Under the pieces are notes generated by a model, which worked only from the letters and a program-made list of their open reading frames with translations, was not told where the DNA came from and made no database searches. Positions 8,083-27,424 of a DNA stretch of 36,179 nucleotides are shown here, piece after piece. Position 1 is the first letter of the stretch; each line of letters starts with the position of its first letter. The stretch is from a virus, in IMG/VR virus record IMGVR_UViG_3300032297_000274, positions 1 through 36,179 of that record; one strand, 5' to 3'. The translations under genes and the position numbers were made by a program.

Positions 8083-8091
8083 AATATTAAT

Positions 8092-8106: not shown

Positions 8107-8142
8107 AGGTACACACAGACATTCACATACAAAGGAGATTAT

Positions 8143-8556
8143 ATGTCTAAATCATTTACACACGCTGGTGTTTCTAAACTCGACGGTGAGTTCAAAGTTC
8201 GCTTTGCCAATGACTCATTGCGCACCAAGGTCTTGATCAAGAACGGTCACACCGACATCGATATCATCGAGTTGAAGACTGCTATGACCAAAGAAGAAGC
8301 TGTTGCCTATTTGCTCAGCATCGACTTTGACAACGGCAACACAGAAGTCCGTGCTGCATTGGAAGCCGAACAAGGCAAGCGCACAGAGACTCCCAAGGCA
8401 GCCAAGCCCCCCAAAGCAGCCAAGCCTAAGAAGTCCACTCCATCATTGGATGCCATTGCCGCTCGCGCCAAGGCCACCAAGACTCCACCTAAGAGCACCG
8501 TGAGCAAAGCCCAAGTTGAAGCACAACTGGCTGACATGGACGACGCTCCTTATTGA
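8143..8556 (+). CDS. Basic-tailed conserved phage protein, 137 aa
   Basis: The first 75 residues form a folded domain (FKVRFANDSLRTKVLIKNGHTDIDIIEL, split across residues 17-44) with MTKEEAVAYLL helix. The second half is a Lys/Pro/Ala-rich low-complexity tail (PKAAKPPKAAKPKK, about 84-97) likely to bind nucleic acid, ending in an acidic stretch. It has a strong ribosome site (AAAGGAG, 8131-8137), a distinct promoter and a stabilising leader hairpin, so high expression is expected. Function unknown; a histone-like or ribosome-associated role is only a guess. Confidence 0.8.
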   Translation: MSKSFTHAGVSKLDGEFKVRFANDSLRTKVLIKNGHTDIDIIELKTAMTKEEAVAYLLSIDFDNGNTEVRAALEAEQGKRTETPKAAKPPKAAKPKKSTPSLDAIAARAKATKTPPKSTVSKAQVEAQLADMDDAPY

Positions 8557-8561
8557 TTAAC

Positions 8562-8620
8562 CCCCTGCAGTGTGCGTAGCGGCAGTGTCAATAAGTCCGC
8601 TTCGATAAGCTACTGCGGGG
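8562..8620 (+). promoter_or_regulatory. Two-tier RNA hairpin between genes
   Basis: CCCC.GCAGT (8562-8571) pairs with ACTGCGGGG (8612-8620) with one bulged T; inside it AGCGG (8578-8582) pairs with CCGCT (8597-8601). GTAGC (8576-8580) can instead pair with GCTAC (8609-8613), which would break the outer stem. The tail TATTTGGG is T-poor, so simple termination is uncertain. It contains the GCGGGGTATT motif shared with 1303-1406. Confidence 0.55.
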
Positions 8621-8634
8621 TATTTGGGAATCAT

Positions 8635-8844
8635 ATGAAAGTTTTAGCTGCAATTGGTATTTTATTATTGTTGGCCCTAGTTATAGTATTAGGACCATGG
8701 GCTGTTGTATGGGCCATCAATGTGTTCGGTGCAACCTTTTGGCCCACAGTGGTATTGCCCTATAATTTAGAAACCTGGGGTGCTGTGGTCATCATCGGCA
8801 TAGCAATTAACGGTCGTCACATTCGCGTAAAGGTAGACAAATGA
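8635..8844 (+). CDS. Small membrane protein, 69 aa
   Basis: Start 8635 (MKVLAAIGILLLLALVIVLG) gives a first transmembrane segment at residues 3-30 and a second (TWGAVVIIGIAINGR) at about 47-61, with a basic cytoplasmic tail. The frame extends upstream through the hairpin but without a ribosome site. There is no own promoter, so it is probably read from P10 through the hairpin. It overlaps the next gene as ATGA. Confidence 0.75.
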   Translation: MKVLAAIGILLLLALVIVLGPWAVVWAINVFGATFWPTVVLPYNLETWGAVVIIGIAINGRHIRVKVDK

Positions 8845-9059
8845 GCAGATTAGATTACATCGGTCGTCCTTGGGTTGCATTTGAAGCAACTAACAGAGAA
8901 CATCGCAAATGGTTTGCTGAGTTCCAAAAGTCGGGTACATGGGGCCGTTGCCCAGTTCGATTCATTGTCAGCGATGATCACGGCGATTTGGTTACAATGA
9001 TCCAACGTCGATTGATCAATCATTATGTAAACAAAGAATTTGGCAAAATTGCCGCTTGA
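8841..9059 (+). CDS. Conserved phage protein, 72 aa
   Basis: MSRLDYIGRPWVAFEATNRE and the central WFAEFQKSGTWGRCPVRFIV suggest a small alpha/beta protein of unknown role. It is coupled to the membrane protein gene by a 4-base overlap. Its TGA stop (9057-9059) lies within the TTGACA of the next promoter, as also happens at 4836 and 14099. Confidence 0.75.
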   Translation: MSRLDYIGRPWVAFEATNREHRKWFAEFQKSGTWGRCPVRFIVSDDHGDLVTMIQRRLINHYVNKEFGKIAA

Positions 9060-9084
9060 CATTGATTACAGATATATGTATACT
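9056..9084 (+). promoter_or_regulatory. Early promoter P11 (divergent type)
   Basis: TTGACA (9056-9061), 17-base spacer, TATACT (9079-9084). The spacer and leader lack the GGTAAAACC and CATACACTAA blocks of the usual cassette. Confidence 0.75.
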
Positions 9085-9126
9085 TGTTATTAACTGTTAA
9101 CACAGTATAAAAACAAGGAAAACAAA

Positions 9127-9396
9127 ATGAAACATTTCAATCCAGAAACTAAGACATTCAAGTTGTTCAACGCTATGTACAACGGTGAAGCCGTTACAGC
9201 AAGCCAAGCAGAAAAGCGTTTTGGCATCAAGAACATCAGCGCAGAAGTAAGCCGCATCCGTCAAAACGGTTACGCTGTCTACGCCAACACCCGTGTCGCT
9301 GGTAATAACGTCAAGGTTACAGAATATGTAATCGGCAAGCCAAGCCGTGCAATCGTTGCCGCTGGTTACAAGGCCTTGGCCGCTGGTCTAGTCTAA
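9127..9396 (+). CDS. Winged-helix-like DNA-binding protein, 89 aa
   Basis: FKLFNAMYNGEAVTASQAEKRFGIKNISAEVSRI (in two parts, residues 11-28 and 29-44) reads as helix, short helix TASQAEKRFG, and recognition helix NISAEVSRIRQNG, followed by YAVYANTRV as wing. This is the HTH arrangement of small phage winged-helix proteins. A role as an early transcription regulator is plausible. CAAGGAAAAC is the ribosome site. A run of hairpins follows the gene. Confidence 0.78.
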   Translation: MKHFNPETKTFKLFNAMYNGEAVTASQAEKRFGIKNISAEVSRIRQNGYAVYANTRVAGNNVKVTEYVIGKPSRAIVAAGYKALAAGLV

Positions 9397-9412
9397 GAGT
9401 TCGCTCCGAAGT

Positions 9413-9473
9413 CCTGGGGGTAGTGTCCCAGGCAAACCCCCGAACCCTGCCTATCGTGAGATACGCGGGGTTC
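9413..9473 (+). terminator. Tandem hairpins after the winged-helix gene
   Basis: CCTGGG (9413-9418) pairs with CCCAGG (9427-9432). GAACCCTGC (9442-9450) pairs with GCGGGGTTC (9465-9473) with one T-G pair, enclosing TATC-GTGA-GATA with a GNRA-type tetraloop. The sequence after them (ACCTATATCC) is not T-rich, so they may protect or process the mRNA more than terminate it. Confidence 0.5.
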
Positions 9474-9490
9474 ACCTATATCCCTACTGG

Positions 9491-9519
9491 TTGACGGGTT
9501 TCTATTTTGGTGTTATAAT
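9491..9519 (+). promoter_or_regulatory. Early cassette promoter P12
   Basis: TTGACG (9491-9496), 17-base spacer, TATAAT (9514-9519). Confidence 0.85.
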
Positions 9520-9546
9520 AATGACATACACTACAGAGAGCAGGAC

Positions 9547-9945
9547 ATGGAATATTATGTTGAGGCAGGTCCAAAGACCAAAAAGTTCATAGAAGCCCTG
9601 CTACCGTCGATGTTAGAACAGCTCAAGCTGACACGGAGTCGTCAACTCCTGCACATCATCGTAGACCGGGACATTGATCACTTGGCAGAGACCATTCCAT
9701 TGCCGGGCATTGGCACCGTGCTTGTGGTACTCAAGCCCACTCGCAGGCTATTAGATCTGGGCATCACACTGGCACACGAGCTGACCCATGTAGCGCAGTT
9801 TGCCAAAGGCACACTACAGGTCACACCCAAAGGCAAGCGGTGGAAGGGCAAATTCTACGGCAATGATGTGGCATATCTACAACAGCCCTGGGAGATTGAT
9901 GCGTTCTCTAAGCAAGAGCTGATCTTCCGCAGAGCTATAGAATAA
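9547..9945 (+). CDS. Zinc metallopeptidase-like protein (HELTH)
   Basis: HELTH at residues 77-81 is a perfect HExxH zinc-protease motif within ITLAHELTHVAQFAKG. The third zinc ligand is probably E116 in PWEIDAFSKQE, giving a gluzincin-like pattern as in SprT/minimal phage peptidases. At 132 residues it is only the catalytic core, so a cytoplasmic enzyme without signal peptide acting on host or phage proteins is likely. ATG 9547 follows a weak GAGCAGGAC ribosome site. The gene is alone in its cassette, with P13 ten bases after the stop. Confidence 0.78.
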   Translation: MEYYVEAGPKTKKFIEALLPSMLEQLKLTRSRQLLHIIVDRDIDHLAETIPLPGIGTVLVVLKPTRRLLDLGITLAHELTHVAQFAKGTLQVTPKGKRWKGKFYGNDVAYLQQPWEIDAFSKQELIFRRAIE

Positions 9946-9954
9946 CCCTACTGG

Positions 9955-9983
9955 TTGACAGGTCTTCCAAAAGACGCTATAAT
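9955..9983 (+). promoter_or_regulatory. Early cassette promoter P13
   Basis: TTGACA (9955-9960), 17-base spacer containing the dyad GTCTTCCAAAAGAC, TATAAT (9978-9983). Confidence 0.9.
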
Positions 9984-10010
9984 ACATACATAGACAACAA
10001 GGAGCACAGT

Positions 10011-10094
10011 ATGACAGACACACAAATTATCGTAACCGCAGTAGTTGTAGTAATCATCTTTGCCGTTAAGGTTTGGATCCTCACTAAAATCTAA
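10011..10094 (+). CDS. Single-span membrane microprotein, 27 aa
   Basis: MTDTQIIVTAVVVVIIFAV then KVWILTKI: one transmembrane helix (about residues 5-24) with a short basic tail. AAGGAGC lies eight bases before ATG 10011, and the gene directly follows P13, so it is the first gene of a four-gene unit. Its TAA overlaps the AAGGAG site of the next gene. The small size leaves function open; interaction with a host membrane protein is conceivable. Confidence 0.65.
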   Translation: MTDTQIIVTAVVVVIIFAVKVWILTKI

Positions 10095-10104
10095 GGAGTC
10101 TGTT

Positions 10105-10308
10105 ATGGCCTACACTGTCTTCAAACACAATCAGGAATTCACAGCCCGTAAGGGTCTAGAAGGTCCTTTCCACTATCCCAATGGTCGTGTTCTGTACTAC
10201 GATCCAAAGGCGGGAGAGTATTGGGATCCACGCACAGACTTCTATGTTCCCAACGATGAAGTCAGTGAACTCCAAAACAGTTTTTTTGATTTGATTAAAA
10301 ATGCCTAA
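10105..10308 (+). CDS. Hypothetical early protein, 67 aa
   Basis: Start 10105 is chosen for the AAGGAG at 10093-10098; the frame is open upstream but would overlap the microprotein. The sequence contains GPFHYPNGRVLYYDPKAGEYW, a beta-rich Tyr/Gly pattern, and an acidic helix at the end. No family is recognised. It overlaps the next start by eight bases. Confidence 0.72.
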   Translation: MAYTVFKHNQEFTARKGLEGPFHYPNGRVLYYDPKAGEYWDPRTDFYVPNDEVSELQNSFFDLIKNA

Positions 10309-10504
10309 GTACTACATCTACCAAGAGACCACAGAGTGGGATGGCGGCCAAAGCGGCAACCACATCTACATCTTCAAGACTCAACCAACTGGCCGTAGCG
10401 CAGATGCCGTGGCATTCATTCCGCAAGGGCAGACACAGGTACAGAAGTTCAAGAAGCCCTATAAACTAGATCTGCGTGGTCGAACCTTCGAGGCACTGGT
10501 ATGA
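10301..10504 (+). CDS. Hypothetical early protein, 67 aa
   Basis: Beta-rich small protein (KYYIYQETTEWDGG.SGNHIYIF) with a basic C-terminal half. It is translated from within the end of the previous gene (8-base overlap) and overlaps the next one by four bases. No function can be assigned. Confidence 0.7.
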   Translation: MPKYYIYQETTEWDGGQSGNHIYIFKTQPTGRSADAVAFIPQGQTQVQKFKKPYKLDLRGRTFEALV

Positions 10505-10698
10505 CAGTTGAACTCCGCATCGTTGACAAAGATGTTAACCCACTAGAGCTGATGATTGTACACGATGACCTCAAGGCCAAGGGTGTCAGGTACGCCAGCG
10601 TCTACAAAGGCAATGACTGCATCTGGGTTAACTACAATCTAATTGATGCCTATTACATCTTTAAGAACAGTCAGCTGGTAGACGTACAGTACGATTGA
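10501..10698 (+). CDS. Hypothetical early protein, 65 aa
   Basis: Coupled to its upstream neighbour by ATGA. MTVELRIVDKDVNPLELMI and VRYASVYKGNDCIWVNYNLID suggest a compact beta/alpha fold. It is the last gene of the P13 unit; its end is followed by about 40 bases without hairpin and then P14. Confidence 0.7.
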   Translation: MTVELRIVDKDVNPLELMIVHDDLKAKGVRYASVYKGNDCIWVNYNLIDAYYIFKNSQLVDVQYD

Positions 10699-10737
10699 GT
10701 GTTGTAAAAATACCACACCACGTAAAGCCCTTAGAGG

Positions 10738-10766
10738 TTGACATGTTATCCAAAAGGCGTTATAAT
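10738..10766 (+). promoter_or_regulatory. Early cassette promoter P14
   Basis: TTGACA (10738-10743), 17-base spacer, TATAAT (10761-10766), leader with CACTAAGGAGC. Confidence 0.92.
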
Positions 10767-10793
10767 ACATACATAGACACTAAGGAGCACACA

Positions 10794-11084
10794 ATGGCTA
10801 AACTCTTAATCACTACACAGACTTATGAGAACTACGGCGACATCGCCCAGCCCTACTGGAAGCCCAAAGGTGGCAGTGACTATGTGGTCAAGAAGGTCAA
10901 CGTCAACAAGGTCACAGAGACTGTGATGGGCCTGCGCGGTCAGATTGAGTGCGACAACGAATACTATCGTGAGCACATCCTAGGTTGGGAGATTGTCTCA
11001 GACGACTACTTGACAGAGTTTGAGCAGTCGCAGTTGGACTACGAAGGTCAGATCCGCTTCCCTGCTAAAGAGTTGGTTTGGTAA
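10794..11084 (+). CDS. Hypothetical early protein, 96 aa
   Basis: Start 10794 is used because it follows AAGGAGC after P14; the open frame upstream passes through the promoter. MAKLLITTQTYENYGD and the central VNKVTETVMGLRGQIECDNEYYR suggest an alpha/beta fold with an acidic end (SDDYLTEFEQSQLDYEG). Tyr and Trp are frequent. Function unknown. Confidence 0.77.
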   Translation: MAKLLITTQTYENYGDIAQPYWKPKGGSDYVVKKVNVNKVTETVMGLRGQIECDNEYYREHILGWEIVSDDYLTEFEQSQLDYEGQIRFPAKELVW

Positions 11085-11096
11085 TAGCCCTAGTGG

Positions 11097-11125
11097 TTGA
11101 CAGGGCTTTGAAATCCTGTTATAAT
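11097..11125 (+). promoter_or_regulatory. Early cassette promoter P15
   Basis: TTGACA (11097-11102), 17-base spacer, TATAAT (11120-11125). AGCCCT (11086-11091) and AGGGCT (11102-11107) flank the -35 box, a dyad that could form in readthrough RNA. Confidence 0.9.
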
Positions 11126-11152
11126 ACACACATACACTAAACAGGAGCAATG

Positions 11153-11383
11153 ATGTTAGCAGAAATTACACAACACGGTTTCTATGATGAGCGTCACGGT
11201 GGTCCATATGATCGTGGTACCGCAGACAGCTACTATATGAGAGAGTTCAATCCGCACTACTTTGTAGGCGATACCTACAAGAGCCCAAAGATTGAGATGG
11301 CGCAGATGACTGCCGCAGAGATTGTGGCCTACACCGCAGGCTATACCAACAACGAAGCTAACGGCGATCACAAGGAATGGTAA
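11153..11383 (+). CDS. Conserved phage protein, 76 aa
   Basis: HGGPYDRGTADSYYMREFNPHYF (split: residues 13-24 and 25-35) followed by MTAAEIVAYTAGYTNNEANGDHKEW is a pattern typical of a small conserved protein of T4-type and other phages, of unknown function. Two ATGs (11150, 11153) are possible; 11153 is better spaced from AGGAG at 11143-11147. It is the only gene of its cassette. Confidence 0.82.
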   Translation: MLAEITQHGFYDERHGGPYDRGTADSYYMREFNPHYFVGDTYKSPKIEMAQMTAAEIVAYTAGYTNNEANGDHKEW

Positions 11384-11395
11384 TACCCCTAGGGG

Positions 11396-11424
11396 TTGAC
11401 AGGTCTTTGTAATCGTGTTATAAT
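11396..11424 (+). promoter_or_regulatory. Early cassette promoter P16
   Basis: TTGACA (11396-11401), 17-base spacer, TATAAT (11419-11424). The perfect palindrome ACCCCTAGGGGT (11385-11396) runs into the first base of the -35 box. Confidence 0.92.
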
Positions 11425-11454
11425 ACACACTTAAACACTAAAAGGAAACACAAC

Positions 11455-12321
11455 ATGGCAGCAACTAAAAGCAAGGCCCCCGGCAAAGGCTCTACAGTAC
11501 TAGAGTTTGACACAGACGCTATTAAGGCCCTTGAGAAGAAGGTAGCCAAAGAGACAGATCAAGAGATCCTTGATCGATTGGCCGAGCGCTTTGAGATCTT
11601 AGACGAGATGACCAAAGCAGTTAAGACTGGTGATGTACGTGCCATGATTGTGTCAGGTCCACCTGGCGTGGGCAAGAGCCACGGTGTTGAGACAGTACTC
11701 CAAAAGGCTGACATCTTCAATACATTGGCCGAGCGTAAGCCCAAGTACGAAGTGGTCAAAGGCGCTATGAGTGCCATCGGCCTGTACGCTAAGTTGTACG
11801 AGTTCAGCGACGTTGGTAACGTTGTAGTGTTCGACGACTGTGACTCAATCTTGATGGAAGACCTGAGCTTGAACATCTTGAAGGGTGCTTTGGACAGCAG
11901 TGAGCGTCGTTTCATCAGCTGGAACACAGACAGCAGACTGTTGCGTTCAGAAGGTATTCCAGATCGCTTTGAGTTCAAGGGTGCCGCGATCTTCATCACT
12001 AATATTAAGTTCGAGCACGTTCGCAGTAAGAAGCTCCGTGACCACTTGGATGCTTTGGAAAGCCGTTGCCACTACATTGACCTGCAGATGGACACACAAC
12101 GAGAGAAGATCCTGCGTATCAAGCAGATCGTGCCCACCATGTTGGCTCGCTACGAGTTTGAGCAATGTGTGCAAGACGAGTTGGTTGAGTTTGTAGAAGC
12201 TAACCAAGACAAGCTTCGCGAGTTGAGTCTCCGTATGGTACTCAAGCTAGCAGATCTGCGCAAGGCGTTTCCACGTAACTGGACAGCAATGGCCAAGACT
12301 ACATGTATGAAACGAGCGTAA
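11455..12321 (+). CDS. AAA+ ATPase, 288 aa
   Basis: Walker A is GPPGVGKS (residues 68-75), Walker B VVVFDDCDS (123-131), and FITN (180-183) is a sensor 1 candidate; R204 in LESRCHYIDL could act as arginine finger. The order and spacing fit a single AAA+ module, preceded by an acidic helical N-terminus and followed by a C-terminal helical lid. The substrate is unknown: phage AAA+ proteins of this size work as remodelers in replication, transcription or protein handling. It is by far the largest gene of the early array and heads a four-gene unit (12322, 12552, 12809). AAAGGAAA precedes ATG 11455. Confidence 0.85.
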   Translation: MAATKSKAPGKGSTVLEFDTDAIKALEKKVAKETDQEILDRLAERFEILDEMTKAVKTGDVRAMIVSGPPGVGKSHGVETVLQKADIFNTLAERKPKYEVVKGAMSAIGLYAKLYEFSDVGNVVVFDDCDSILMEDLSLNILKGALDSSERRFISWNTDSRLLRSEGIPDRFEFKGAAIFITNIKFEHVRSKKLRDHLDALESRCHYIDLQMDTQREKILRIKQIVPTMLARYEFEQCVQDELVEFVEANQDKLRELSLRMVLKLADLRKAFPRNWTAMAKTTCMKRA

Positions 12322-12555
12322 ATGATCCAACGCTTAGTACTGTATGCGACCCTGGGCTTCTTATTGAATGCCCTAGGGCAGAGCGCCTTTGACTGGGGCT
12401 TTTGGTGTGTGCTGGCCTTGTTTGTATGCGGCGATGTCATAGCCCGTAAAGAAGGACAAGAGCACGGCATCTGGATAACCATTACACTCCCCGCTGAGAA
12501 ATTAGCAGAGCTTAAACGACAATTAGACAAAGACATCAAGGACGCAGAGCAATGA
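12322..12555 (+). CDS. Small membrane protein, 77 aa
   Basis: Two hydrophobic segments (about residues 5-20 and 26-42) followed by a charged cytoplasmic-type helix (AEKLAELKRQLDKDIKDAEQ). It begins on the base after the ATPase stop, so the two are probably translationally coupled and may cooperate at the membrane. The stop overlaps the next ATG by four bases. Confidence 0.75.
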   Translation: MIQRLVLYATLGFLLNALGQSAFDWGFWCVLALFVCGDVIARKEGQEHGIWITITLPAEKLAELKRQLDKDIKDAEQ

Positions 12556-12812
12556 CTATTAACAAATGCACATACCTAGGCGCGAGTACCACACCATGTG
12601 GATGCGCCACAGTAGAGGGCCGTAGCTATTGCGCAGAGCACTTGTTCAAAGTCTACAAGCAGGGCACAACCCGTGCCAAGCGCAAGAAAGAACTACAGAC
12701 CGTGGACAAGGTACGTATCGTACAAGAGCTACTCAATGATGCCATTGCAGAGTTGGAAGCCGAAGGTTATGACTGTTATGCCGAACGCGAACTGGACCTA
12801 GAAGAACTATGA
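12552..12812 (+). CDS. Putative zinc-binding early protein, 86 aa
   Basis: C6, C16, C18, C27 and H30 in CTYLGASTTPCGC...SYCAEH form a likely small zinc site, followed by a basic segment (TTRAKRKKELQ) and an acidic helical tail. This seems to be a conserved phage family; a nucleic-acid or protein-binding role is plausible. It is coupled on both sides by 4-base overlaps. Confidence 0.77.
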   Translation: MTINKCTYLGASTTPCGCATVEGRSYCAEHLFKVYKQGTTRAKRKKELQTVDKVRIVQELLNDAIAELEAEGYDCYAERELDLEEL

Positions 12813-13018
12813 ACGACAACGATAAGAACAACTTGGTATTCCTAATGAACCTCAGCCCCCAAGCATTCCGTGAGTGGTTTGCGCAGGCCAGCATGGATGA
12901 CATTGATTATGCAGAAGAACTCATAGCACAGGCACAGATCTTGGCCATTGATGCCCGTGTGGCACAATTGCCACAGTACCGAGAAGCTGAAGAAGTTCTA
13001 AAACCCTTTTTATTGTAG
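12809..13018 (+). CDS. Hypothetical early protein, 69 aa
   Basis: All-helical acidic protein (LSPQAFREWFAQASMDDIDYAEELIAQ). It is the last gene of the ATPase unit. Its final codons and stop (CCTTTTTATTGTAG) form the loop and 3' side of the hairpin before P17, so termination and the end of translation coincide. Confidence 0.75.
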   Translation: MNDNDKNNLVFLMNLSPQAFREWFAQASMDDIDYAEELIAQAQILAIDARVAQLPQYREAEEVLKPFLL

Positions 13019-13026
13019 GGTCTTTG
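13003..13026 (+). terminator. Hairpin overlapping a stop codon, before P17
   Basis: ACCCT (13003-13007) and AGGGT (13017-13021) form the stem, the TAG stop (13016-13018) lies in its 3' side, and TCTTTGG follows. Confidence 0.5.
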
Positions 13027-13027
13027 G

Positions 13028-13056
13028 TTGACCATTTGGCTTAGTGACATTATAAT
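13028..13056 (+). promoter_or_regulatory. Early cassette promoter P17
   Basis: TTGACC (13028-13033), 17-base spacer, TATAAT (13051-13056), leader CATACACTAACAAGGAGC. Confidence 0.9.
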
Positions 13057-13084
13057 ACAAGCATACACTAACAAGGAGCTCCAA

Positions 13085-13315
13085 ATGGGACAATACGCAA
13101 ATACAGTTAACGCATACGCACAAGACGAAGCCCGTGTTCGCGTTTACAAAACAAAACGCATTTATAACAGTTTCGGTCAGACCGCCTATATGTTAAATGT
13201 TAGCAGTAACAAATTCCGCACAGACATTGCTAAAAAAGCAGACAAGCTCGTTGTTAAATTACAACAACAGCGTGTGGCAGAATTACAACAAGAGTTAGCC
13301 AAGCTAACAGCGTAA
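13085..13315 (+). CDS. Hypothetical early protein, 76 aa
   Basis: Start 13085 follows AAGGAGC; the open frame upstream only runs through the promoter. The basic first half (RVRVYKTKRIYNSF) and the C-terminal helix rich in Gln/Leu (LQQQRVAELQQELAKL), a likely coiled coil, suggest a nucleic-acid-associated oligomer. Function unknown. Confidence 0.75.
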   Translation: MGQYANTVNAYAQDEARVRVYKTKRIYNSFGQTAYMLNVSSNKFRTDIAKKADKLVVKLQQQRVAELQQELAKLTA

Positions 13316-13342
13316 AGTCCCGAGGCCCTGTAGGGTCTTTGG

Positions 13343-13371
13343 TTGACAACTTCGGTAAAACCAGTTATAAT
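13343..13371 (+). promoter_or_regulatory. Early cassette promoter P18
   Basis: TTGACA (13343-13348), 17-base spacer with TCGGTAAAACC, TATAAT (13366-13371). The upstream hairpin is degenerate: CCCT/AGGG with only two loop bases. Confidence 0.92.
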
Positions 13372-13399
13372 ACACACATACACTAAACAGGAGCACTAA

Positions 13400-13750
13400 A
13401 TGGCTAAGACACTTAAAGACATAGACAGCAATGCACTAGGCGACCACCTCGAGGACTTCTGCAACGAGAGCTTGAACAAGAAGCTCCGCAAGTTCCTAGT
13501 TCTAGACAGCCCGTCTAACATTGAAGACATCCTGGCTAAGGCAGAGTTCGAGGATGTAGAGGACATAGACGTCCGGGTGGGCATTGCAGTGGCAGAAGCT
13601 ACATTGTTGGAAGTTAACAAGGTGCTCAAAGCACAGGGCATAGACTTCGAGTTCCGCAGGTTTGACATGGTAGAGTACGAGACTTATATGTTAGTAAACA
13701 CTAACGATAAGAAGCTCGAGGCAGTGGCACAACGGGTGCGGGCTAGCTAA
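13400..13750 (+). CDS. Hypothetical early protein, 116 aa
   Basis: Acidic alpha/beta protein: LGDHLEDFCNESLNKKLRKFL, then EFEDVEDIDVRVGIAVAEA and a C-terminal beta strand with YETYMLVNTNDKK. AGGAGC precedes ATG 13400. It is a single-gene unit. No family was recognised. Confidence 0.77.
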   Translation: MAKTLKDIDSNALGDHLEDFCNESLNKKLRKFLVLDSPSNIEDILAKAEFEDVEDIDVRVGIAVAEATLLEVNKVLKAQGIDFEFRRFDMVEYETYMLVNTNDKKLEAVAQRVRAS

Positions 13751-13753
13751 AGA

Positions 13754-13774
13754 CCCTAGGCCCTCTAGGGCTTT
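13754..13774 (+). terminator. CCCTAG/CTAGGG hairpin before P19
   Basis: CCCTAG (13754-13759) and CTAGGG (13765-13770) pair around the loop GCCCT, followed by CTTTTGG, a better T tract than in most of these cassettes. Confidence 0.6.
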
Positions 13775-13777
13775 TGG

Positions 13778-13806
13778 TTGACACTTTGGTAAAACGGCAG
13801 TATAAT
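13778..13806 (+). promoter_or_regulatory. Early cassette promoter P19
   Basis: TTGACA (13778-13783), 17-base spacer with TTGGTAAAACG, TATAAT (13801-13806). Confidence 0.93.
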
Positions 13807-13838
13807 ACATACATACACTAACACACTAGGAGCACACA

Positions 13839-14102
13839 ATGATCAAGCAAGGCGAGATTGTAGTTTACAAGAACTTGGGCACATACCAACTCATCATAGA
13901 GGACTTCCGTCCGCAACATGACATTGAGCGGTACTACCAAGTCCGCCACTTCTCAGGTTTAGAAGTTCAGGCAGACACTATCAAAGAAGCTAAGAAGTGC
14001 CTCGAGGACTTTGAGAGAGTGGCACAAGAGATACAGGGTGCCATTAACAAGCTAACACGCTATGGATACCGCGTGTTCAAAGATGTGACAGAAAGAGGTT
14101 GA
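13839..14102 (+). CDS. Hypothetical early protein, 87 aa
   Basis: MIKQGEIVVYKNLGTYQLIIEDF reads as a beta-barrel-like start, then a helical charged half (TIKEAKKCLEDFERVAQEIQ). AGGAGC precedes it. The TGA stop (14100-14102) lies within the -35 box of the next promoter, so no terminator can separate the two units. Confidence 0.75.
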   Translation: MIKQGEIVVYKNLGTYQLIIEDFRPQHDIERYYQVRHFSGLEVQADTIKEAKKCLEDFERVAQEIQGAINKLTRYGYRVFKDVTERG

Positions 14103-14127
14103 CAGGTTGGTAAAACCGTGTTATAAT
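14099..14127 (+). promoter_or_regulatory. Early cassette promoter P20
   Basis: TTGACA (14099-14104), 17-base spacer with TTGGTAAAACC, TATAAT (14122-14127). It overlaps the end of the 13839 gene. Confidence 0.92.
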
Positions 14128-14156
14128 ACACACATAAACAAATAAAAGGACACAAG

Positions 14157-14309
14157 ATGAAACAAGTACAAAGAGCTTCAAGCACAGGTGGAACTATCAC
14201 AGAGTTCTTCGACGAAGACGGTCGCTTAGTAAAGACTGTACACACAGCAGGCAAACAATACAGCGGTAAGATCGCCGCACAAGAATCTAAATTAACTAAA
14301 GGAAAATGA
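14157..14309 (+). CDS. Hypothetical early protein, 50 aa
   Basis: MKQVQRASSTGGTITEFFDE, then a Lys-rich tail ending LTKGK. AAAAGGACAC is the ribosome site. FFDEDGRLVKTVHTAGKQYSG reads like a short beta meander. It leads into the membrane protein gene at 14312, sharing the AAAGGA site. No function known. Confidence 0.68.
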   Translation: MKQVQRASSTGGTITEFFDEDGRLVKTVHTAGKQYSGKIAAQESKLTKGK

Positions 14310-14311
14310 AA

Positions 14312-14545
14312 ATGAACAAGTATCAGAAACAAGCTATCCTAGACATGGTCAAAGTCTCCGCAGTCATACTTGGTGCAATTGCAGTCATAGGCTTTATTAT
14401 TAAAATGGGCGTTGAAGCCAACGACGTGATCACAGTGGGATCCTTTGCACTCATGGGCTACTGTATCTATCAACTGTTCCTAGTCCGTGTAAGCCAGCTG
14501 GAGTCAGAGGACAAGCGCACAGAAATGGAAAGCCGCTACAAATAA
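14312..14545 (+). CDS. Small membrane protein, 77 aa
   Basis: Two transmembrane segments (about residues 12-31 and 38-59) with a charged C-terminal helix (QLESEDKRTEMESRYK). ATG 14312 has AAAGGA at 14298-14303 with eight-base spacing; ATG 14306, which overlaps the previous stop, is too close to that site but cannot be excluded. Its stop lies at the foot of the next cassette hairpin. Confidence 0.75.
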   Translation: MNKYQKQAILDMVKVSAVILGAIAVIGFIIKMGVEANDVITVGSFALMGYCIYQLFLVRVSQLESEDKRTEMESRYK

Positions 14546-14563
14546 CCCTACAATGCATAGGGT
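14545..14563 (+). terminator. ACCCTA/TAGGGT hairpin before P21
   Basis: ACCCTA (14545-14550) pairs with TAGGGT (14558-14563) around CAATGCA. No T tract follows; GGTTGACA begins at once. Confidence 0.4.
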
Positions 14564-14565
14564 GG

Positions 14566-14594
14566 TTGACAAACGGGTAAATTGGCGTTATAAT
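14566..14594 (+). promoter_or_regulatory. Early cassette promoter P21
   Basis: TTGACA (14566-14571), 17-base spacer, TATAAT (14589-14594), leader with CACTAAACAGGAGC. It is the last cassette of the array. Confidence 0.92.
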
Positions 14595-16225: not shown

Positions 16226-16774
16226 ATGGCATTACCCTCGTCCGGATCGTTATCAATGAGTCAAGTCAACACTGAGTTGGGTCGGCCGTCCCGTCAGGGC
16301 ATTTCATTGAATGACGGCCAGGTCCGTAGCTTGGCTCAACGTCCCAGCGGCACTATCAGTATGAGCAATCTACGTGGTAGAAGCCTTGAAAACAGAATTA
16401 ACTTGTATTATAGCTACTTATGGTTCGGTGAAGAAGGTTACACCCTTAGTCGGACCTATCAAGATCCAGGATGGAGCATCAATGGCTACAGTGTGTTTGG
16501 CATTTTCACTGAAGGATACTACTGGGGTAACAGCTATAGTTACCTGATAGTTCGTGGTTACGCACCACAAAACTTGTTTAACTCTCTCGTTGGCTGGGAC
16601 GGCAGAACCTATACACCCACCGGTGTAAGTCCAGGTGGTGGTGTTATGTATAGTTTTCAACAATTCGGCAATTTGACCTACTGGTTCTGGTACAACAACG
16701 CCTACGGTGGGGGTCTACTCTATGCTCCTCCATATTACAACGGTGACGGCACTCAACTCTTTATACAAAACTAA
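16226..16774 (+). CDS. Putative virion/tail-associated protein
   Basis: The first 50 residues (ALPSSGSLSMSQVNTELGRP, ISLNDGQVRSLA, SGTISMSNLRGRS) are a motif seen in many phage tail-fibre and adhesin-associated proteins. The rest is Gly/Tyr/Trp-rich (YYSYLWFGEEGY, GGGVMYSFQQFG, WFWYNNAYGGGLLYAPPYY), suitable for a beta-rich, surface-exposed domain. The late promoter directly upstream supports a structural role. The sequence alone does not say whether it is a fibre tip, a decoration or a chaperone. Length 182 residues. Confidence 0.65.
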   Translation: MALPSSGSLSMSQVNTELGRPSRQGISLNDGQVRSLAQRPSGTISMSNLRGRSLENRINLYYSYLWFGEEGYTLSRTYQDPGWSINGYSVFGIFTEGYYWGNSYSYLIVRGYAPQNLFNSLVGWDGRTYTPTGVSPGGGVMYSFQQFGNLTYWFWYNNAYGGGLLYAPPYYNGDGTQLFIQN

Positions 16775-16794: not shown

Positions 16795-17403
16795 CTAGGC
16801 AGATCGTACACTGACATTGGTGGTCAGTACCCAACGTAGTTCGCCTTCGCGGCCCTGATGTACCTGTGTTCTGTGCTCTAGCCAACCTGGAAATATCATC
16901 ACATCACCTTCTGACACAGGCAGGGTATGCCACCCTCGGTTTGGTCCGCCTTGGGGTCCTGTCTGCGGATGAAAGCGCCAGTAGGCTGTGTTGGGGTCAT
17001 AGAACTCAATGCCTCCACTGTGTTCAGGAACCTGTATGTAGGCACTGACCGCGGCTATGACTGTGCCGTGTGTATGTGACAGAGTCTGGCCTCCACGATC
17101 ATGATAGTTGGTCCAACTCTGCCCTATTTGAAACTGTGTATGAGGCATGATGTTCCACTGTTCAAACATTACTCTGCGCACCACGGGACCCAGCCACTGA
17201 TAGAAATCCTGGAACTCCGGCATGTTGTGTGGTCGGTCCACACTGTTGCTGGCACTGGTAGCGGCTGCCCCTACTTCCAGGTCTAGATCTATGGGTCTGT
17301 TGTCCACACATTTTTTCAGTGCAGGTAGCACACGATCTTTGTCCCATTTGTAGTGAGCTCGGTGTATAAGCTCGGGAAAAACTTTCAAAGGTTCGCTGCT
17401 CAT
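16795..17403 (-). CDS. 2-oxoglutarate/Fe(II)-dependent oxygenase
   Basis: SHTHGTVIAAVSAYIQVPEHSGGIEFYDPN (residues 109-138, split here) with H110/H112, then GDVMIFPGWLEHRT with H177, and R190 in RWVLTTNV: the iron and 2-oxoglutarate binding pattern of TIGR02466-type putative 2OG-Fe(II) oxygenases. These enzymes hydroxylate protein or small-molecule substrates using O2; the target is not evident. At 202 residues it is a complete single domain. The start overlaps the halogenase stop by four bases, so both are made from one message and may act on a common substrate. Confidence 0.8.
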   Translation of the reverse strand: MSSEPLKVFPELIHRAHYKWDKDRVLPALKKCVDNRPIDLDLEVGAAATSASNSVDRPHNMPEFQDFYQWLGPVVRRVMFEQWNIMPHTQFQIGQSWTNYHDRGGQTLSHTHGTVIAAVSAYIQVPEHSGGIEFYDPNTAYWRFHPQTGPQGGPNRGWHTLPVSEGDVMIFPGWLEHRTQVHQGREGELRWVLTTNVSVRSA

Positions 17404-18941
17404 AATCTCAGCAATGGGTGTAATTGCAGTGCAATGTTAGGATCAATGGCGGGCTTGGGTAAAACAAATCCTTGTCGAAGTCCATGAATTAATTCAGTAT
17501 TAGGCACACACTCGCGCAAGGACTCATTGATGTAATCTGCGGTTTCCTGCCAACCCCGAGACCATCTTGCCCGTGATTGATCACTGAGAATGGATTCAAT
17601 GTTGTCCATGTTCATCCATCCATAGGCCAACATGGGATAAATGAACACTCCGTAGCCTGAACCAGCCCAACCTATGTTCCAATCACTGACATGGGGCCAT
17701 CGACGGGCACCGGTGTCCCTGAGTCTGGCCACTGTGGGCCTCATTGGTAGACTCTGTTGTTTGCGCCAAAATTCACTGTCATTTCTACCACTGCGATAGT
17801 GTAGGTGTATGAGATCAGCATAGTGATCAATCTGCTCTGTGAGACGTTTGCTGGACCATTGATAAGAAGAATCATCTTTAGGCAGTATGTTGCCCAATAA
17901 TATGCTATTAGTCAAATGTTCCAATTGTCCTATGGTTCCGTGTATGCTAGTGGCCTGCAAGGGTTCTAGGAAACTACTGGCCAGGCCTATAGCACACACA
18001 TTCTTTTTAAATGGCTCTTGGACTCGTCCGGGATCAAATTTAATGGTTTTGATTATTTTAACTGGTCGACCTACTGTGTGCTCTATTTCTTTCACAGCCT
18101 CATCGTAGCTGATACAAGAGCTGTCATAGACATAGCCACAGCCACGACGGTCTTGTATGGGTATCTGCCACATCCATCCTGCATTCATAGCACGAGCTTC
18201 TGTCACGGGTGTTATAGTTTCACCTGGCTGATAATCCAGTAAAAAAGGCAGGGCAGTATCGCAGGTTAGACTATCTCGGTAACTGACCCAGCCCATGTCC
18301 ATTTCTTTGGCCAGTATACGGGCAAAACCTGTGGCATCTATCCAATAATCTGCGGTCACAGTCTGTCCGTTGGCCAGATCGATGCTGGTGATATTTCCAT
18401 CACCGTCTTTGACACAGCTCTGATACTCGCTGTCTATCAGAGTAATTTCATCCAGTATTTTGCTTTTTAAAAACTGTCCAACCAAGTGTCCGTCAAAGTG
18501 ATAACTGGCTATTTCAAAACAATTGCCGTCTCGGGTTACAGTGCTAAGATCTCGTTCTGCTAGTTGTCCACAGAGTGTACTGCGATGAGCTAGGTCTGTG
18601 CCCTGCGTCAAACAATGATAGATTAATTCGCTGTCCCAATCATCTCTTCTCGTTCGAGTGTTACCAATGGGTGCTATGTAACTCCGACCATCACCTTGCC
18701 AATTGTGAAATCTAATCCCTAATTTAAAAGTAGCCTTGGTGCCCAATAGGAATTCTGGAATACTGATTCCAAAACTTTTTATAGCATCAGGAAATACACC
18801 TGTACTACCTTCGCCTGCCCCTATGATAGGAATCCGACTGCTTTCAACGACTGTTATTTCGTGTTGATACGGATGTTTACGTAACATCCAAATTGCTGCC
18901 AACCAGCCTGCTGTCCCACCACCTAAGATACAAATTTTCAT
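17400..18941 (-). CDS. Flavin-dependent halogenase (tryptophan halogenase family)
   Basis: ILGGGTAGW (residues 5-13) is the FAD-binding dinucleotide loop with the halogenase-specific T-A-G-W. K73 in KATFKLGIRF fits the catalytic lysine, WMWQIP (256-261) is the diagnostic WxWxIP motif, and FLEPLQATSIHG (324-335) matches the active-site VEPLESTGI block with E326 as catalytic glutamate. The 513-residue length is typical. Members use FADH2, O2 and halide to halogenate indoles or pyrroles; a flavin reductase partner is not in the window and would have to come from the host. Viral flavin halogenases are known in marine T4-type phages. ATG 18941 has no strong ribosome site. Confidence 0.92.
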   Translation of the reverse strand: MKICILGGGTAGWLAAIWMLRKHPYQHEITVVESSRIPIIGAGEGSTGVFPDAIKSFGISIPEFLLGTKATFKLGIRFHNWQGDGRSYIAPIGNTRTRRDDWDSELIYHCLTQGTDLAHRSTLCGQLAERDLSTVTRDGNCFEIASYHFDGHLVGQFLKSKILDEITLIDSEYQSCVKDGDGNITSIDLANGQTVTADYWIDATGFARILAKEMDMGWVSYRDSLTCDTALPFLLDYQPGETITPVTEARAMNAGWMWQIPIQDRRGCGYVYDSSCISYDEAVKEIEHTVGRPVKIIKTIKFDPGRVQEPFKKNVCAIGLASSFLEPLQATSIHGTIGQLEHLTNSILLGNILPKDDSSYQWSSKRLTEQIDHYADLIHLHYRSGRNDSEFWRKQQSLPMRPTVARLRDTGARRWPHVSDWNIGWAGSGYGVFIYPMLAYGWMNMDNIESILSDQSRARWSRGWQETADYINESLRECVPNTELIHGLRQGFVLPKPAIDPNIALQLHPLLRL

Positions 18942-18983
18942 ACTGTAATTATCTCTAATTATATTGGGTTTTTACGTTTTTGA

Positions 18984-19013: not shown

Positions 19014-19454
19014 ATGTTGCACATAATTCAACGATTAGATGACCCTCTCACACACCTAGTGGCCGACGATCCAGTGAGGCCAGAGATACCGCTTGATTTT
19101 AGAGTCAGCGATAACAGTGAAATTTTTGTTTGGATAGACGATGACACTGGTAGACCGGGTGCCGCAGTATGTGTGGCCTATCGTGACTCTGTGCCCAGCA
19201 CAGTCAATGAATTGATAACCTTGGGCAGTGAAGATGCCAAGGTAGCAGTATTTTATACCATTTGGAGTTATACTTCAGGCAGTGGTCGCAAATTAATTCG
19301 TGCTACCCAAAGCTGGATCAAAACCAATAAAAAGAATATCTCTGAATATATAACATTGAGCCCTCCCACTGAAATGGCTAGAATATTTCATCTACGGAAC
19401 GGTGCTACAATATGGCGTACAAATTCTGATACTGTAAACTATCAGTATCAATAA
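19014..19454 (+). CDS. Conserved phage protein, possibly acetyltransferase-like
   Basis: 146 residues: LDDPLTHLVADDPVRPEIP..FR, then AAVCVAYRDSVPSTVNEL, AVFYTIWSYTSGSGRKLI, and LSPPTEMARIFHLRNGA. The order beta, helix, a GxGR-like loop (GSGRKLI) and a late FHLRNGA helix resembles the GNAT acyltransferase fold, and the pattern seems conserved in T4-type phages, but the acetyl-CoA loop is not canonical. Converges with the NT5C-like gene with a 7-base overlap. Confidence 0.6.
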   Translation: MLHIIQRLDDPLTHLVADDPVRPEIPLDFRVSDNSEIFVWIDDDTGRPGAAVCVAYRDSVPSTVNELITLGSEDAKVAVFYTIWSYTSGSGRKLIRATQSWIKTNKKNISEYITLSPPTEMARIFHLRNGATIWRTNSDTVNYQYQ

Positions 19455-24606: not shown

Positions 24607-24990
24607 ATGTCCACTCCTGACCAGTTCCAAGAAAATTATCCGTTCGTTAGCTGTATTAAATCAAATGATATAGAATACGTTGGAATAATCGTTAATTTCG
24701 ATGATTTTGTAGCCAGCATATATGATATCAGTATCATCAAAAGTGATCAAGATAAACGTAAATTCTTAGAACTAGGAGAAGTTTGGTGGTGGGAAAGCAA
24801 TCGTAAGATTCCTATCAATATCTTTTTAAAACAAGAAATGTCTGAATTCAGATATGCTATTAAAACATTTAACAGCAAGGACGTCGGACTGATATTCGGT
24901 CCAAAAGTAAATCTAAGTGAGATTGCGGAAAAAAGGATTAAACGTAAAAGTATTCAACTAGTACGTAATCCTAGGCGTAAGGATAGCTAA
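24607..24990 (+). CDS. Hypothetical protein, 127 aa
   Basis: Unrecognised. MSTPDQFQENYPFVSCIKSND, then a beta-rich middle (VGIIVNFDDFVASIYDI, WWWESNRKIPINIFLKQEM) and a very basic C-terminus (IKRKSIQLVRNPRRKD). It is divergent from the structural gene and converges with the DnaE-like gene with a 20-base overlap of the 3' ends. There is no ribosome site upstream of ATG 24607 (TTATTGACA), so a leaderless message is possible. Confidence 0.62.
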   Translation: MSTPDQFQENYPFVSCIKSNDIEYVGIIVNFDDFVASIYDISIIKSDQDKRKFLELGEVWWWESNRKIPINIFLKQEMSEFRYAIKTFNSKDVGLIFGPKVNLSEIAEKRIKRKSIQLVRNPRRKDS

Positions 24991-25549
24991 TACCTTCGCA
25001 GATTAAATTCATCTGTACCACAATAACGTGGGCATAGGCCACAGCGTGAGCCTTCTTAAAATAGTATTCATCCCCAGTTGGTTTGATCCAAACTTCTTTC
25101 ATAATTGTATCCCAGTCCTGTCCAATTAAGTGACGTTTAGCAGGACGGATCATGGCTAGTACTGCTGCCAATTCTAAAATGCTTTTAGGTTTTGCCTGGG
25201 CTAGAATAGAATGATGTCCGCTTACATGAAACAATAAGTCGGTGAATTCTTTTTGTTCTAAAAGGCCCCATAATGGTTCAGTGGCCAGTAGTTGTTGCAG
25301 GTGAGCTTCATCTCTTACACCTTTGTAGACACTGACATTTAAGAAATCAATCTTAAAGTAACCTCTATCCTCTGCTTCTTTATAATCTATACTTGCTAAT
25401 CCAGTAATAGGATTGCAGGGAATAGAGTGACAATATGCGCCAGTATTGTGTTTTTTAAAAGCACCATTTTCTTGGATAGCCGCAGGAACATTCTTGATAA
25501 CATCGAGTACCTTTGCTCTATCTAAAAAATCAATGTCAATATCCGGCAT
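24971..25549 (-). CDS. Compact DNA polymerase III alpha (DnaE)-like protein
   Basis: MPDIDIDFLDRAKVLDVI (residues 1-18) matches the PDxDxDF catalytic motif of C-family polymerases, and RGYFKIDFLN (63-73) the second motif with its single Asp (D68 here). Further on, SILELAAVLAMIRPAK and EYYFKKAHAVAYAHVIVV correspond to DnaE blocks a..aLyRPg and F.KSHA.aYa. Thus the three catalytic aspartates seem preserved while the palm insertions, PHP domain and OB/beta-binding regions are gone: 192 residues against more than 1100. Whether it polymerises is doubtful; it may be a regulatory or scaffold protein. It starts inside the end of the kinase gene (14-base overlap). Confidence 0.62.
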   Translation of the reverse strand: MPDIDIDFLDRAKVLDVIKNVPAAIQENGAFKKHNTGAYCHSIPCNPITGLASIDYKEAEDRGYFKIDFLNVSVYKGVRDEAHLQQLLATEPLWGLLEQKEFTDLLFHVSGHHSILAQAKPKSILELAAVLAMIRPAKRHLIGQDWDTIMKEVWIKPTGDEYYFKKAHAVAYAHVIVVQMNLICEGISYPYA

Positions 25550-26318
25550 TTCGAATCTCGTCGTAAGATGGTGCGTAGTTACCACGGTGTTGGACAGTAA
25601 TACCTGCGGCTACATTAGCAAATATTATAGCTTTTTCTATGTCTTTTGTAAAGAGATATTGAGTAGCCAGTGCTGCCAAAAATGTATCTCCACAACCGCA
25701 AACATCAGTAACTTCTGCAGACTTGGTTGGAAATATGTTACCATTGTACATTGCGCCTTTACTACCTAATGTAACAATCAGGTTATCATGATTGGATGTG
25801 GCATTGTTATATTCTAGTTCATTGATTTTAATAAAAACATCAGGAAGATTGAACATACTTAGATCCCGTTTTTTAGTATCAATGAATACAGGACACTCAG
25901 AATTTTTAATTATCTGATGTATTTGAAACTCAGATAAAAATCCTTTATTGTAATCTGATATCACAATAATATCATATCCATCTATGGGAAACGGTGAGTC
26001 ACCGCTCCAAGGTACAATTTCAGGTTCGTCATCTACACGTAACATGTGCTGACCCGAACGTTTGTCAATGTATCGAGTTTTTTTAATTATTTCCTCATTG
26101 GTTATGAAGTCTACATTGATGCCTAAGTTTTCAAAATTCTTTTTGACATTAGACGCCATACCAGATACAGTTTTTGTTTCTACAATTTTAATAACAGGCA
26201 CCGGTGCCTCGGGGCTTAATCTATCAATAGTCCCAATTTTATATTCATCAACACAACTATCACCGATTAGTAATACGCTGTATGAGTCCGGTTGTTGAGT
26301 AGTTTGTGACAAGTTCAT
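25536..26318 (-). CDS. hldA: Heptose-7-phosphate kinase (HldE N-domain/HldA type)
   Basis: PfkB/ribokinase fold with the HldE signature DRLSPEAPVPV (residues 32-42). IVTLGSKGA and DVCGCGDTFLAAL (205-217) form the anion hole and catalytic base D211, where most relatives have GAGD. It phosphorylates D-glycero-D-manno-heptose-7-phosphate to the 1,7-bisphosphate. Its start lies 59 bases inside the hldC gene, in a different frame, so the two proteins are separate yet coupled. In Enterobacteria kinase and nucleotidyltransferase are fused as HldE, kinase first; here they are split and the order is reversed. Confidence 0.85.
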   Translation of the reverse strand: MNLSQTTQQPDSYSVLLIGDSCVDEYKIGTIDRLSPEAPVPVIKIVETKTVSGMASNVKKNFENLGINVDFITNEEIIKKTRYIDKRSGQHMLRVDDEPEIVPWSGDSPFPIDGYDIIVISDYNKGFLSEFQIHQIIKNSECPVFIDTKKRDLSMFNLPDVFIKINELEYNNATSNHDNLIVTLGSKGAMYNGNIFPTKSAEVTDVCGCGDTFLAALATQYLFTKDIEKAIIFANVAAGITVQHRGNYAPSYDEIRNAGY

Positions 26319-26658
26319 AAAATTTAATTTCTTTGCAGAGGTGTTCTCCTACAATTGGTTTGCCCCTATAGTCGCTGCCTTTGACCATGACATCTGGTTG
26401 ATAGGTTTCTAAGATATATTCTAATTCAGCTTCATCGGCAAAATACCAAACTGTATCAACACATTTTAAACTCTGCAACATAAAAGATCTATCATTTTGG
26501 TTGTTAATGGGACGCTCGGGACCTTTAAGCTGTTTAACTCTAGTATCTGTATCAATACAAACTAATAGATGATCTCCAAGACTTTTTGCGTATTCTAACA
26601 TTTCGATATGACCCCTATGCAGAATATCAAATGTTCCGTTAACCACTATTTTTTTCAT
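26260..26658 (-). CDS. hldC: Heptose-1-phosphate nucleotidyltransferase (HldE C-domain/HldC type)
   Basis: NGTFDILHRGHIEML (residues 7-21) has the HxGH nucleotide-binding signature of cytidylyltransferases. LKGPERPI, DRSFMLQSLKCVD and PDVMVKGSDYRG follow the RfaE2/HldC family, as does the ending TGLIQRI. The enzyme joins heptose-1-phosphate to a nucleotide (ADP in LPS pathways). At 132 residues it is a complete domain. It lies between hldD (20-base overlap) and hldA. Confidence 0.85.
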   Translation of the reverse strand: MKKIVVNGTFDILHRGHIEMLEYAKSLGDHLLVCIDTDTRVKQLKGPERPINNQNDRSFMLQSLKCVDTVWYFADEAELEYILETYQPDVMVKGSDYRGKPIVGEHLCKEIKFYELVTNYSTTGLIQRITNR

Positions 26659-27424
26659 TTAATGACCTTGTTAATTTTGTCATGTCTGCCTGAGTGAATT
26701 TTTGATACTGTTTGGCAACGTTATCTGGCATTGGGATATATTCTATTCTAGCATTGTATTTGTCTGCAATTATACGAGCCACACTTTCAAAAGATGTCGC
26801 TTGACCTGTGCCTAAATTCCATATTCCAGTTTCTTTAACATTAAAGAATTTTTTATGAATATCGGTTAGATGTTCGACGGGAACAAAGTCCCTTAGGTAG
26901 TTTTCGCTGCCTTCAAATAATTTAATAACTCCGGTTTCCTTGGCCTGTTTTTCAAACTTATGGTAGGGACTTGCTTGATCACCTTTGTGGTCTTCATAAG
27001 GTCCGTAGACATTAAAATATCTAAAACCTTGTACAACTATGTTATCAAACTTGGTGCTTAGAATATGTCTGTCAAACAAATACTTACTCCAGGCATAGGG
27101 ACTTTGTGGACTCAGAGGAGCGTCTTCTTTAAAATTATTTCCTAATCCGTAGACACTGGCGGAACTGGCATATTGCAGATTCACTCCATTTAGTTGACAG
27201 GCCATTAATAGTATACAGCTAAAGTCGTGATTTTGTCTCATCACTTTTTCGACATTAGTTTCAGTGGTAGAACTAATTGCACCTAAATGAATGCACCAAT
27301 CTAATCCTTCCATTTCCGGGGGCTCATCTCCCCAATCGTAATATGATAATTCGTGCTCGTCTTTTAACGCATTGACCATGTTCTGGCCAATGAATCCTTT
27401 ATAACCTGTGATTAATATTTTCAT
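26639..27424 (-). CDS. hldD: ADP-heptose 6-epimerase (HldD/RfaD)
   Basis: SDR-type epimerase: GYKGFIG (7-13) binds NADP, SSAS precedes Y110-x3-K114 (SPYAWSK), and the HldD-specific stretches FRYFNVYGP.EDHKGDQAS, LFEGSENYLRDFV, GIWNLGTGQATSFESVA and IEYIPMP...YQ.FTQAD closely follow the E. coli enzyme. It converts ADP-D-glycero-D-manno-heptose to the L-glycero form used in LPS inner core. At 261 residues it is shorter than the 310-residue bacterial enzyme because of a shortened N-terminal region after the first strands and an earlier C-terminus. It overlaps the cupin gene by four bases. Confidence 0.9.
   Translation of the reverse strand: MKILITGYKGFIGQNMVNALKDEHELSYYDWGDEPPEMEGLDWCIHLGAISSTTETNVEKVMRQNHDFSCILLMACQLNGVNLQYASSASVYGLGNNFKEDAPLSPQSPYAWSKYLFDRHILSTKFDNIVVQGFRYFNVYGPYEDHKGDQASPYHKFEKQAKETGVIKLFEGSENYLRDFVPVEHLTDIHKKFFNVKETGIWNLGTGQATSFESVARIIADKYNARIEYIPMPDNVAKQYQKFTQADMTKLTRSLNEKNSG

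Follow-up and report, generated by a model that had tools for sequence, protein, structure and literature searches.

The window analysed here, a stretch of 36,179 nucleotides corresponding to the virus record IMGVR_UViG_3300032297_000274, encodes a flavin-dependent halogenase (FDH) and, directly after it on the same strand, a 2-oxoglutarate (2OG)-Fe(II) oxygenase (Table 1). As reported in the preliminary description of this DNA, both reading frames are open and share an ATGA (17403-17400), and profile searches bear out that a real FDH (PF04820; 294.8 bits against a cut-off of 21, E = 1.6e-87) and a real 2OG-type oxygenase (PF13759; 51.8 bits against a cut-off of 27, E = 1.2e-13) are joined in one overlapping unit. 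An assembly error is not behind the two frames, since this virus is represented by another IMG/VR contig, which matches the window over 17.7 kb at 99.94% identity. Upstream of the halogenase lies a candidate promoter, AAACCCAATATAAT, which we considered as a member of a repeated promoter family and rejected as such, as it occurs in a single copy in each phage. A profile search for a flavin reductase (PF01613) found none in the window or its kin.

Table 1. Features of the halogenase-oxygenase locus (positions in the window; residue numbers for motifs)
Feature	Position	Strand	Basis
Flavin-dependent halogenase (FDH), 513 aa	17400..18941	-	ORF, PF04820, phrog_2928, alignments, AF2 model
FDH motifs: GGGTAGW 7-13, Lys73, WMWQIP, EPLQATS with Gln329 at the catalytic-Glu position			
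2OG-Fe(II) oxygenase (2OG-FeII_Oxy_5), 202 aa	16795..17403	-	PF13759, PHROGs, AF2 model
ATGA shared by the halogenase stop and the oxygenase start (translational coupling)	17400..17403	-	ORF coordinates
AAACCCAATATAAT, candidate promoter upstream of the halogenase	18958..18971	-	Exact match in sister phage L029/L109
Tail-fibre-like N-terminal module with Tyr/Trp-rich C-terminal part; convergent neighbour, candidate substrate	16226..16774	+	
AATAAATA, T4-late-like, ahead of the tail-fibre-like gene	at 16210		
146-aa gene divergent to the halogenase, weak MCD/GNAT-like match	19014..19454	+	Kept in relatives

The UvsX protein encoded in the window is 64-69% identical to those of Sinorhizobium phage Phosso, Atu_ph07, Vibrio 2.275.O and similar giants, and 81-91% identical to those of contigs of 132-355 kb; the largest kin contigs measure 326-355 kb. 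SSB and DnaB agree with UvsX, with PA5oct-type phages among the other best matches, and all three proteins are matched best by jumbo phages of Pseudomonas, Rhizobiales and Vibrio, not by cyanophages. Judged by these matches, the window appears to be a 36-kb fragment of a jumbo phage of the Rak2/Atu_ph07 type. The parallel drawn earlier with the halogenase of a marine T4-type phage therefore fails, as the replication genes match jumbo phages and the FDH falls outside the clade of VirX1, the halogenase of cyanophage Syn10. Atu_ph07 itself has been placed in group 2.2 (reviewed in PMC7824862). Within the lineage the FDH is rare accessory cargo: it is found in none of 33 large contigs that carry the lineage's sugar cassette (described below; three of these contigs exceed 326 kb), and it is absent from 12 relatives whose sequence covers the 146-aa GNAT-like gene and continues for 1 kb or more past it. 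This GNAT-like gene marks the variable site at which the pair sits. Among FDH-carrying phage records, none of the 60 of 65 covered by the matches listed names a Rak2/Atu_ph07-type phage.

Further features of the window concern its wider organisation. On the plus strand, positions 2186-14594 hold 19 near-perfect sigma-70 promoters (TTGAC[ACT]-16/18-TATAAT), against only one on the minus strand; they sit before small ORFs in a repeated intergenic block of 50-90 nt, often preceded by a CCCTA...TAGGG stem, occur also in the sister contig L109, and are likely early promoters for the host polymerase. On the minus strand, a set of overlapping genes at positions 25536-27777 is reminiscent of a nucleotide-heptose pathway, encoding a PfkB kinase, a cytidylyltransferase-like protein, an epimerase and a cupin. 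The complete set of four is present in 92 of 153 related loci, and cyanophages share these genes. A gene at 24971-25585 (-), matching phrog_11778, travels with this cassette; its label as a DNA polymerase is doubtful, as it has no Pfam match.

The FDH also matches phrog_2928, in agreement with Pfam, and its AF2 model (pLDDT 90.6) superposes on solved tryptophan halogenases with Z scores of 40-53. Across 28 relatives, Lys73, most of the WxWxIP motif and the FAD motif vary little or not at all. The preliminary description had listed a full set of halogenase motifs; GGGTAGW, K73 and WMWQIP are indeed as given, but the catalytic glutamate is replaced by glutamine. E326, named there as the catalytic residue, is the first, structural Glu of EPLQATS, which is followed by Pro and is invariant even in sequences with Gln in place of the second Glu. 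Thal uses Lys79, Glu358 and Ser359 for catalysis (PMC7948982), and this Glu-Ser pair identifies the catalytic Glu as the second one of the EPLESTG motif, the one preceding Ser. In alignments to solved structures Gln329 occupies this position, opposite Thal E358, so that the Lys-Glu pair of tryptophan and indole halogenases (PrnA, RebH, Thal) is not present in the viral protein. Here the full alignment does show in part what the preliminary description itself had named as speaking against its proposal, namely a substitution in the active site.

The same exchange has been made experimentally: in PrnA it lowers activity by two orders of magnitude and in MalA it abolishes it, and this catalytic Glu is absent from phenol halogenases (PMC8407142). 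Because the window FDH carries Gln329, the published losses and the phenol halogenases without this Glu lead us to predict a phenol-like substrate. This is probably a better prediction than tryptophan or indole, though by analogy only, since native phenol halogenases belong mostly to other subclades. That the protein might nevertheless be an ordinary tryptophan/indole halogenase like VirX1, as in the preliminary description, would be in keeping with the retention of all other motifs and with the structural similarity to tryptophan halogenases; given the Gln at the catalytic Glu and the placement of VirX1 in a separate clade, we regard it as improbable.

A review states that the tunnel motif FxxPxxSxG marks all active FDHs (PMC8407142). 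The window FDH retains F324 and P327 of this motif, but has Ala330 and Ser332 in place of Ser and Gly; Ala and Ser are common at these strap positions in the viral clade, and the equivalent of residue 332 is Ser in BrvH as well. Together with Gln329, these strap residues could indicate that the protein is no longer a halogenase at all, but a flavin oxidase, a hypohalite generator or a decaying gene. This is quite doubtful in view of the near-invariance of Lys73, WxWxIP and the FAD motif, of the intact frame reproduced in the second assembly, and of the dN/dS values of 0.19-0.36 in pairs of Gln-type relatives, which correspond to purifying selection (the pair formed by the window FDH and its closest ortholog is saturated at synonymous sites).

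This closest ortholog is found in a sister jumbo phage, IMGVR_UViG_3300032240_000423 (L029), which has the same locus and an FDH that is 50% identical and carries the same Gln; it differs in lacking both the oxygenase and the tail-fibre-like neighbour, and a SAM methyltransferase comes after its FDH. In quick trees of 120 and 153 FDH sequences with SH-aLRT support, the two join with a support of 100 within a viral clade. Gln at the catalytic position occurs in 13 of 115 viral FDH representatives, all of them within one clade of 46 rows, and the tree holds at least four changes between Glu and Gln, three of them forced by well-supported branches. It does not tell several gains of Gln from an ancestral Gln with reversals. 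Among 106 bacterial relatives, in turn, 105 have Glu, one has Gly and none has Gln. The Glu-to-Gln change is thus a natural one in viral FDHs. The closest bacterial group, recovered in a profile scan, is alphaproteobacterial (38-40% identity); a search by exact peptide patterns found no close bacterial relatives. Some of these homologs (L111, L112 and similar, from Rhodobacter and Histidinibacterium) lie among GH4 glycosidase and ABC transporter genes in what look like sugar operons, an odd setting for a halogenase.

The best-known viral relative is VirX1 (PDB 6QGM; identical to Syn9 gp42), likewise a phage PF04820 protein with the FAD motif, the Lys and WxWxIP, and in Syn9 2OG oxygenase genes of the same type lie 1-4 kb downstream. 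In contrast to the EPLQATS of the window FDH, VirX1 has EPLESTG with the catalytic Glu, and the two belong to separate clades (SH-aLRT 99 for VirX1, in a clade of 14 rows, against 97-100 for the window FDH, whose viral clade of 35 rows has 97) and to different phage groups, and are not orthologs. Closer in this respect are the uncharacterised halogenases of Syn1, S-PM2, S-RIM44 and Sf-CH3 (T4-GC 212, annotated as PrnA), which share the Gln (EPLQATSIH) and the larger viral clade, but form a separate Gln lineage with about 30% identity to the window FDH; in Syn1 a PhyH-type 2OG gene adjoins the halogenase. Among the best sequence matches of solved structure are the open-site bacterial FDHs BrvH and Xcc4156, with BrvH having its strap Ser at the Gly position; both differ from the window FDH in having the catalytic Glu and in belonging to a separate bacterial clade.

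We also observed several unusual arrangements among the relatives. The Gln-type halogenase gene of S-PM2 (L018:6001-7476) is complete except for an in-frame stop after residue 75. Two or three tandem halogenase genes, often with 4-nt overlaps, occur in loci of the L054, L058, L059, L061, L063 and L037 type, and one of these halogenases (L059:5367-6653) is highly divergent (FFEPMFANS). An ORF of 681 aa (L046:4001-6046) fuses a halogenase of the sister clade to a C-terminal domain similar to DUF6445, phrog_1644 and phrog_274, which by eye looks like an oxygenase; the family of this domain may also include genes that adjoin halogenases in cyanophages and bear the labels 'DNA endonuclease V' or 'minor coat protein'.

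In the oxygenase, the HTH...H...R pattern noticed previously corresponds to His110-x-His112...His177...Arg190, and all these residues, including Arg190 for 2OG binding, are invariant in an alignment of 18 members, as is Tyr122. The protein has HxH (110-112) instead of the canonical HxD/E, with no Asp or Glu at the usual place of the iron ligand. This is typical of the PF13759 family and is also seen in 2RG4 and 3BVC, two bacterial proteins solved by structural genomics that share the HxH...H pattern and the fold (Z of about 20), but have no link to a halogenase. The AF2 model (pLDDT 81.5) matches 2RG4 with a Z of 20.8 and prolyl hydroxylases with about 15, the latter being a hint, at the level of a modelled fold, that the substrate may be a protein. 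Weak PDB matches to SAKe designs were discarded as repeat artefacts.

An association of FDH and 2OG genes has been noted for cyanophages before (PMC7824862), and it extends beyond them. A 2OG gene on the same strand directly adjoins 26 of 114 FDHs, as compared to 93 of 712 control genes (odds ratio 2.0, p = 0.009), a test that is conservative in drawing its controls from the same 2OG-rich loci and liberal in that the loci are related; 15 of the 26 pairs overlap. Within the jumbo lineage, an FDH is present in 3, a 2OG gene in 4 and both in 2 of about 52 distinct contigs, near-identical viruses being counted separately (hypergeometric p of about 0.013), and the second instance (L091/L308) lies at a different site, where overlapping 2OG genes come after a non-orthologous FDH (33% identity). 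It is conceivable that the two genes are independent cargo whose overlap arose by chance, as the G+C content of the oxygenase gene (0.52) departs from that of the FDH gene (0.45) and of the window (0.42), and the oxygenase is missing from L029. The excess of adjacent pairs, the 15 overlaps and the second, unrelated pair in the same lineage nevertheless make this unlikely. As the closest ortholog does without an oxygenase, the partnership is not obligatory, and the two-step modification of the preliminary description is not supported as a required chemistry. We consider the coupling of FDH and oxygenase likely functional but optional.

What the pair acts upon may be looked for in the neighbourhood of FDH genes. 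For cyanophage S-SSM6a, a cluster of halogenase, 2OG oxygenase, cupin and carbamoyltransferase genes has been proposed to make a halogenated sugar or amino-acid product (PMC7824862), and by extension the pair could tailor a small molecule or glycan in a sugar or amino-acid pathway. The FDH, 2OG, cupin and sugar kinase/nucleotidyltransferase genes of the S-SSM6a and S-SSM7 clusters (PMC7824862) are all found in the window, together with an epimerase; the same sugar set abuts the FDHs of S-SSM7 and of L044-type contigs, lies near the second FDH in L091, and the alphaproteobacterial relatives sit beside GH4/ABC sugar genes. In contrast to S-SSM6a and S-SSM7, however, the sugar genes of the window are about 6.6 kb away from the pair and are core genes of the lineage that elsewhere occur without an FDH. 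Of 153 cassette loci, only 5 lie within 10 kb of an FDH, and the 33 large cassette contigs have none, so that we rejected the cassette as an FDH partner: being kept without the FDH across the lineage, it is a core feature and not evidence of coupling. A metabolite or glycan substrate is accordingly a rather unlikely alternative. One type of operon (L044, L045, L049) combines two tandem halogenases with a kinase-nucleotidyltransferase, an epimerase and a cupin, and almost every gene in it overlaps or abuts its neighbour.

Alternatively, the halogenase, with the oxygenase, may halogenate Tyr or Trp residues of the phage's own tail fibre or adhesin and so alter adsorption or stability. From residue 56 on, the convergent tail-fibre-like neighbour is rich in Tyr (14.8%) and Trp (4.7%), and in a sister FDH clade (L046, L048, L052) the FDH operon includes related Tyr/Trp-rich proteins of about 183 aa (12-21% Y+W), which in L046 come directly after an S74 tail fibre. 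FDHs of the VirX1 type and of S-SRM01 sit after tail-fibre genes, and the oxygenase fold is close to that of peptidyl prolyl hydroxylases. MibH acts on a peptide, and for the open-site FDH Xcc4156 the substrates have been described as 'possibly even peptides' (PMC7336383). Against this stand the FDH of L029, which has no tail-fibre-like neighbour, the Tyr/Trp-rich protein of the window, which cannot be aligned to that of L052, and the many FDHs located in replication or AMG regions. Nor is a Tyr-rich neighbour a general rule, an idea we discarded, since the mean Y+W content near FDHs is 6.6% against 6.0% and only 4 of 321 neighbours exceed 12%. A virion-protein substrate thus remains a tentative proposal, more improbable than probable, and we rank it about equal to a metabolite or glycan, with a large share of the probability falling on neither; the two are versions of the substrate step of our best explanation, and do not exclude it. 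In the VirX1-type loci (L001, L002, L020, L022, L025) the halogenase follows tail-fibre genes and a small conserved protein and has runs of several 2OG oxygenase genes downstream; a conserved neighbour of the MALPSSG type was sought in VirX1 loci and not found.

The explanation we favour, and to which we give an even chance, is that the two genes form an accessory operon at a variable site of a Rak2/Atu_ph07-type jumbo phage, in which a phenol-type FDH and an oxygenase act on the same product or partner. The halogenase, a member of a virus-specific clade, would take FADH2 from a host reductase and, with O2 and halide, form hypohalous acid, which would be passed to Lys73, from where an aromatic substrate would be halogenated electrophilically. 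With Gln in the place of the catalytic Glu, this substrate is probably not free tryptophan or indole but a compound that is electron-rich unaided, for example a phenol or tyrosine. The PF13759 oxygenase would probably hydroxylate the same product or partner. The genes, their folds and motifs, Gln329, the purifying selection on Gln-type relatives and the recurrence of FDH-2OG neighbours are shown by the data, and catalysis, the phenolic substrate and the shared pathway are inferred from them.

FDHs have been reported in 20 of 153 cyanophages (PMC10452541), and the accessible literature reports no natural substrate for any viral halogenase. As far as we searched, the Gln-type viral clade is new, as are its occurrence in a jumbo phage of the Rak2/Atu_ph07 type and the association of the sister clade with Tyr/Trp-rich tail proteins; we found no papers on any of the three, which, given limited literature coverage, is weak evidence. 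The case adds jumbo phages of this type to the known carriers of FDHs and supplies a natural Glu-to-Gln series, a candidate substrate gene nearby, and sister phages with and without the oxygenase, together with a clear prediction of phenol or tyrosine over tryptophan. At its boldest, one might propose that a virus-only FDH lineage has repeatedly swapped Glu for Gln in order to halogenate the tyrosines of its own tail fibres, with the oxygenase as a second modifier. This is a long shot, but if true, the halogenation of tail-fibre tyrosines would constitute the first halogenated virion surface and would explain the purpose of viral halogenases.
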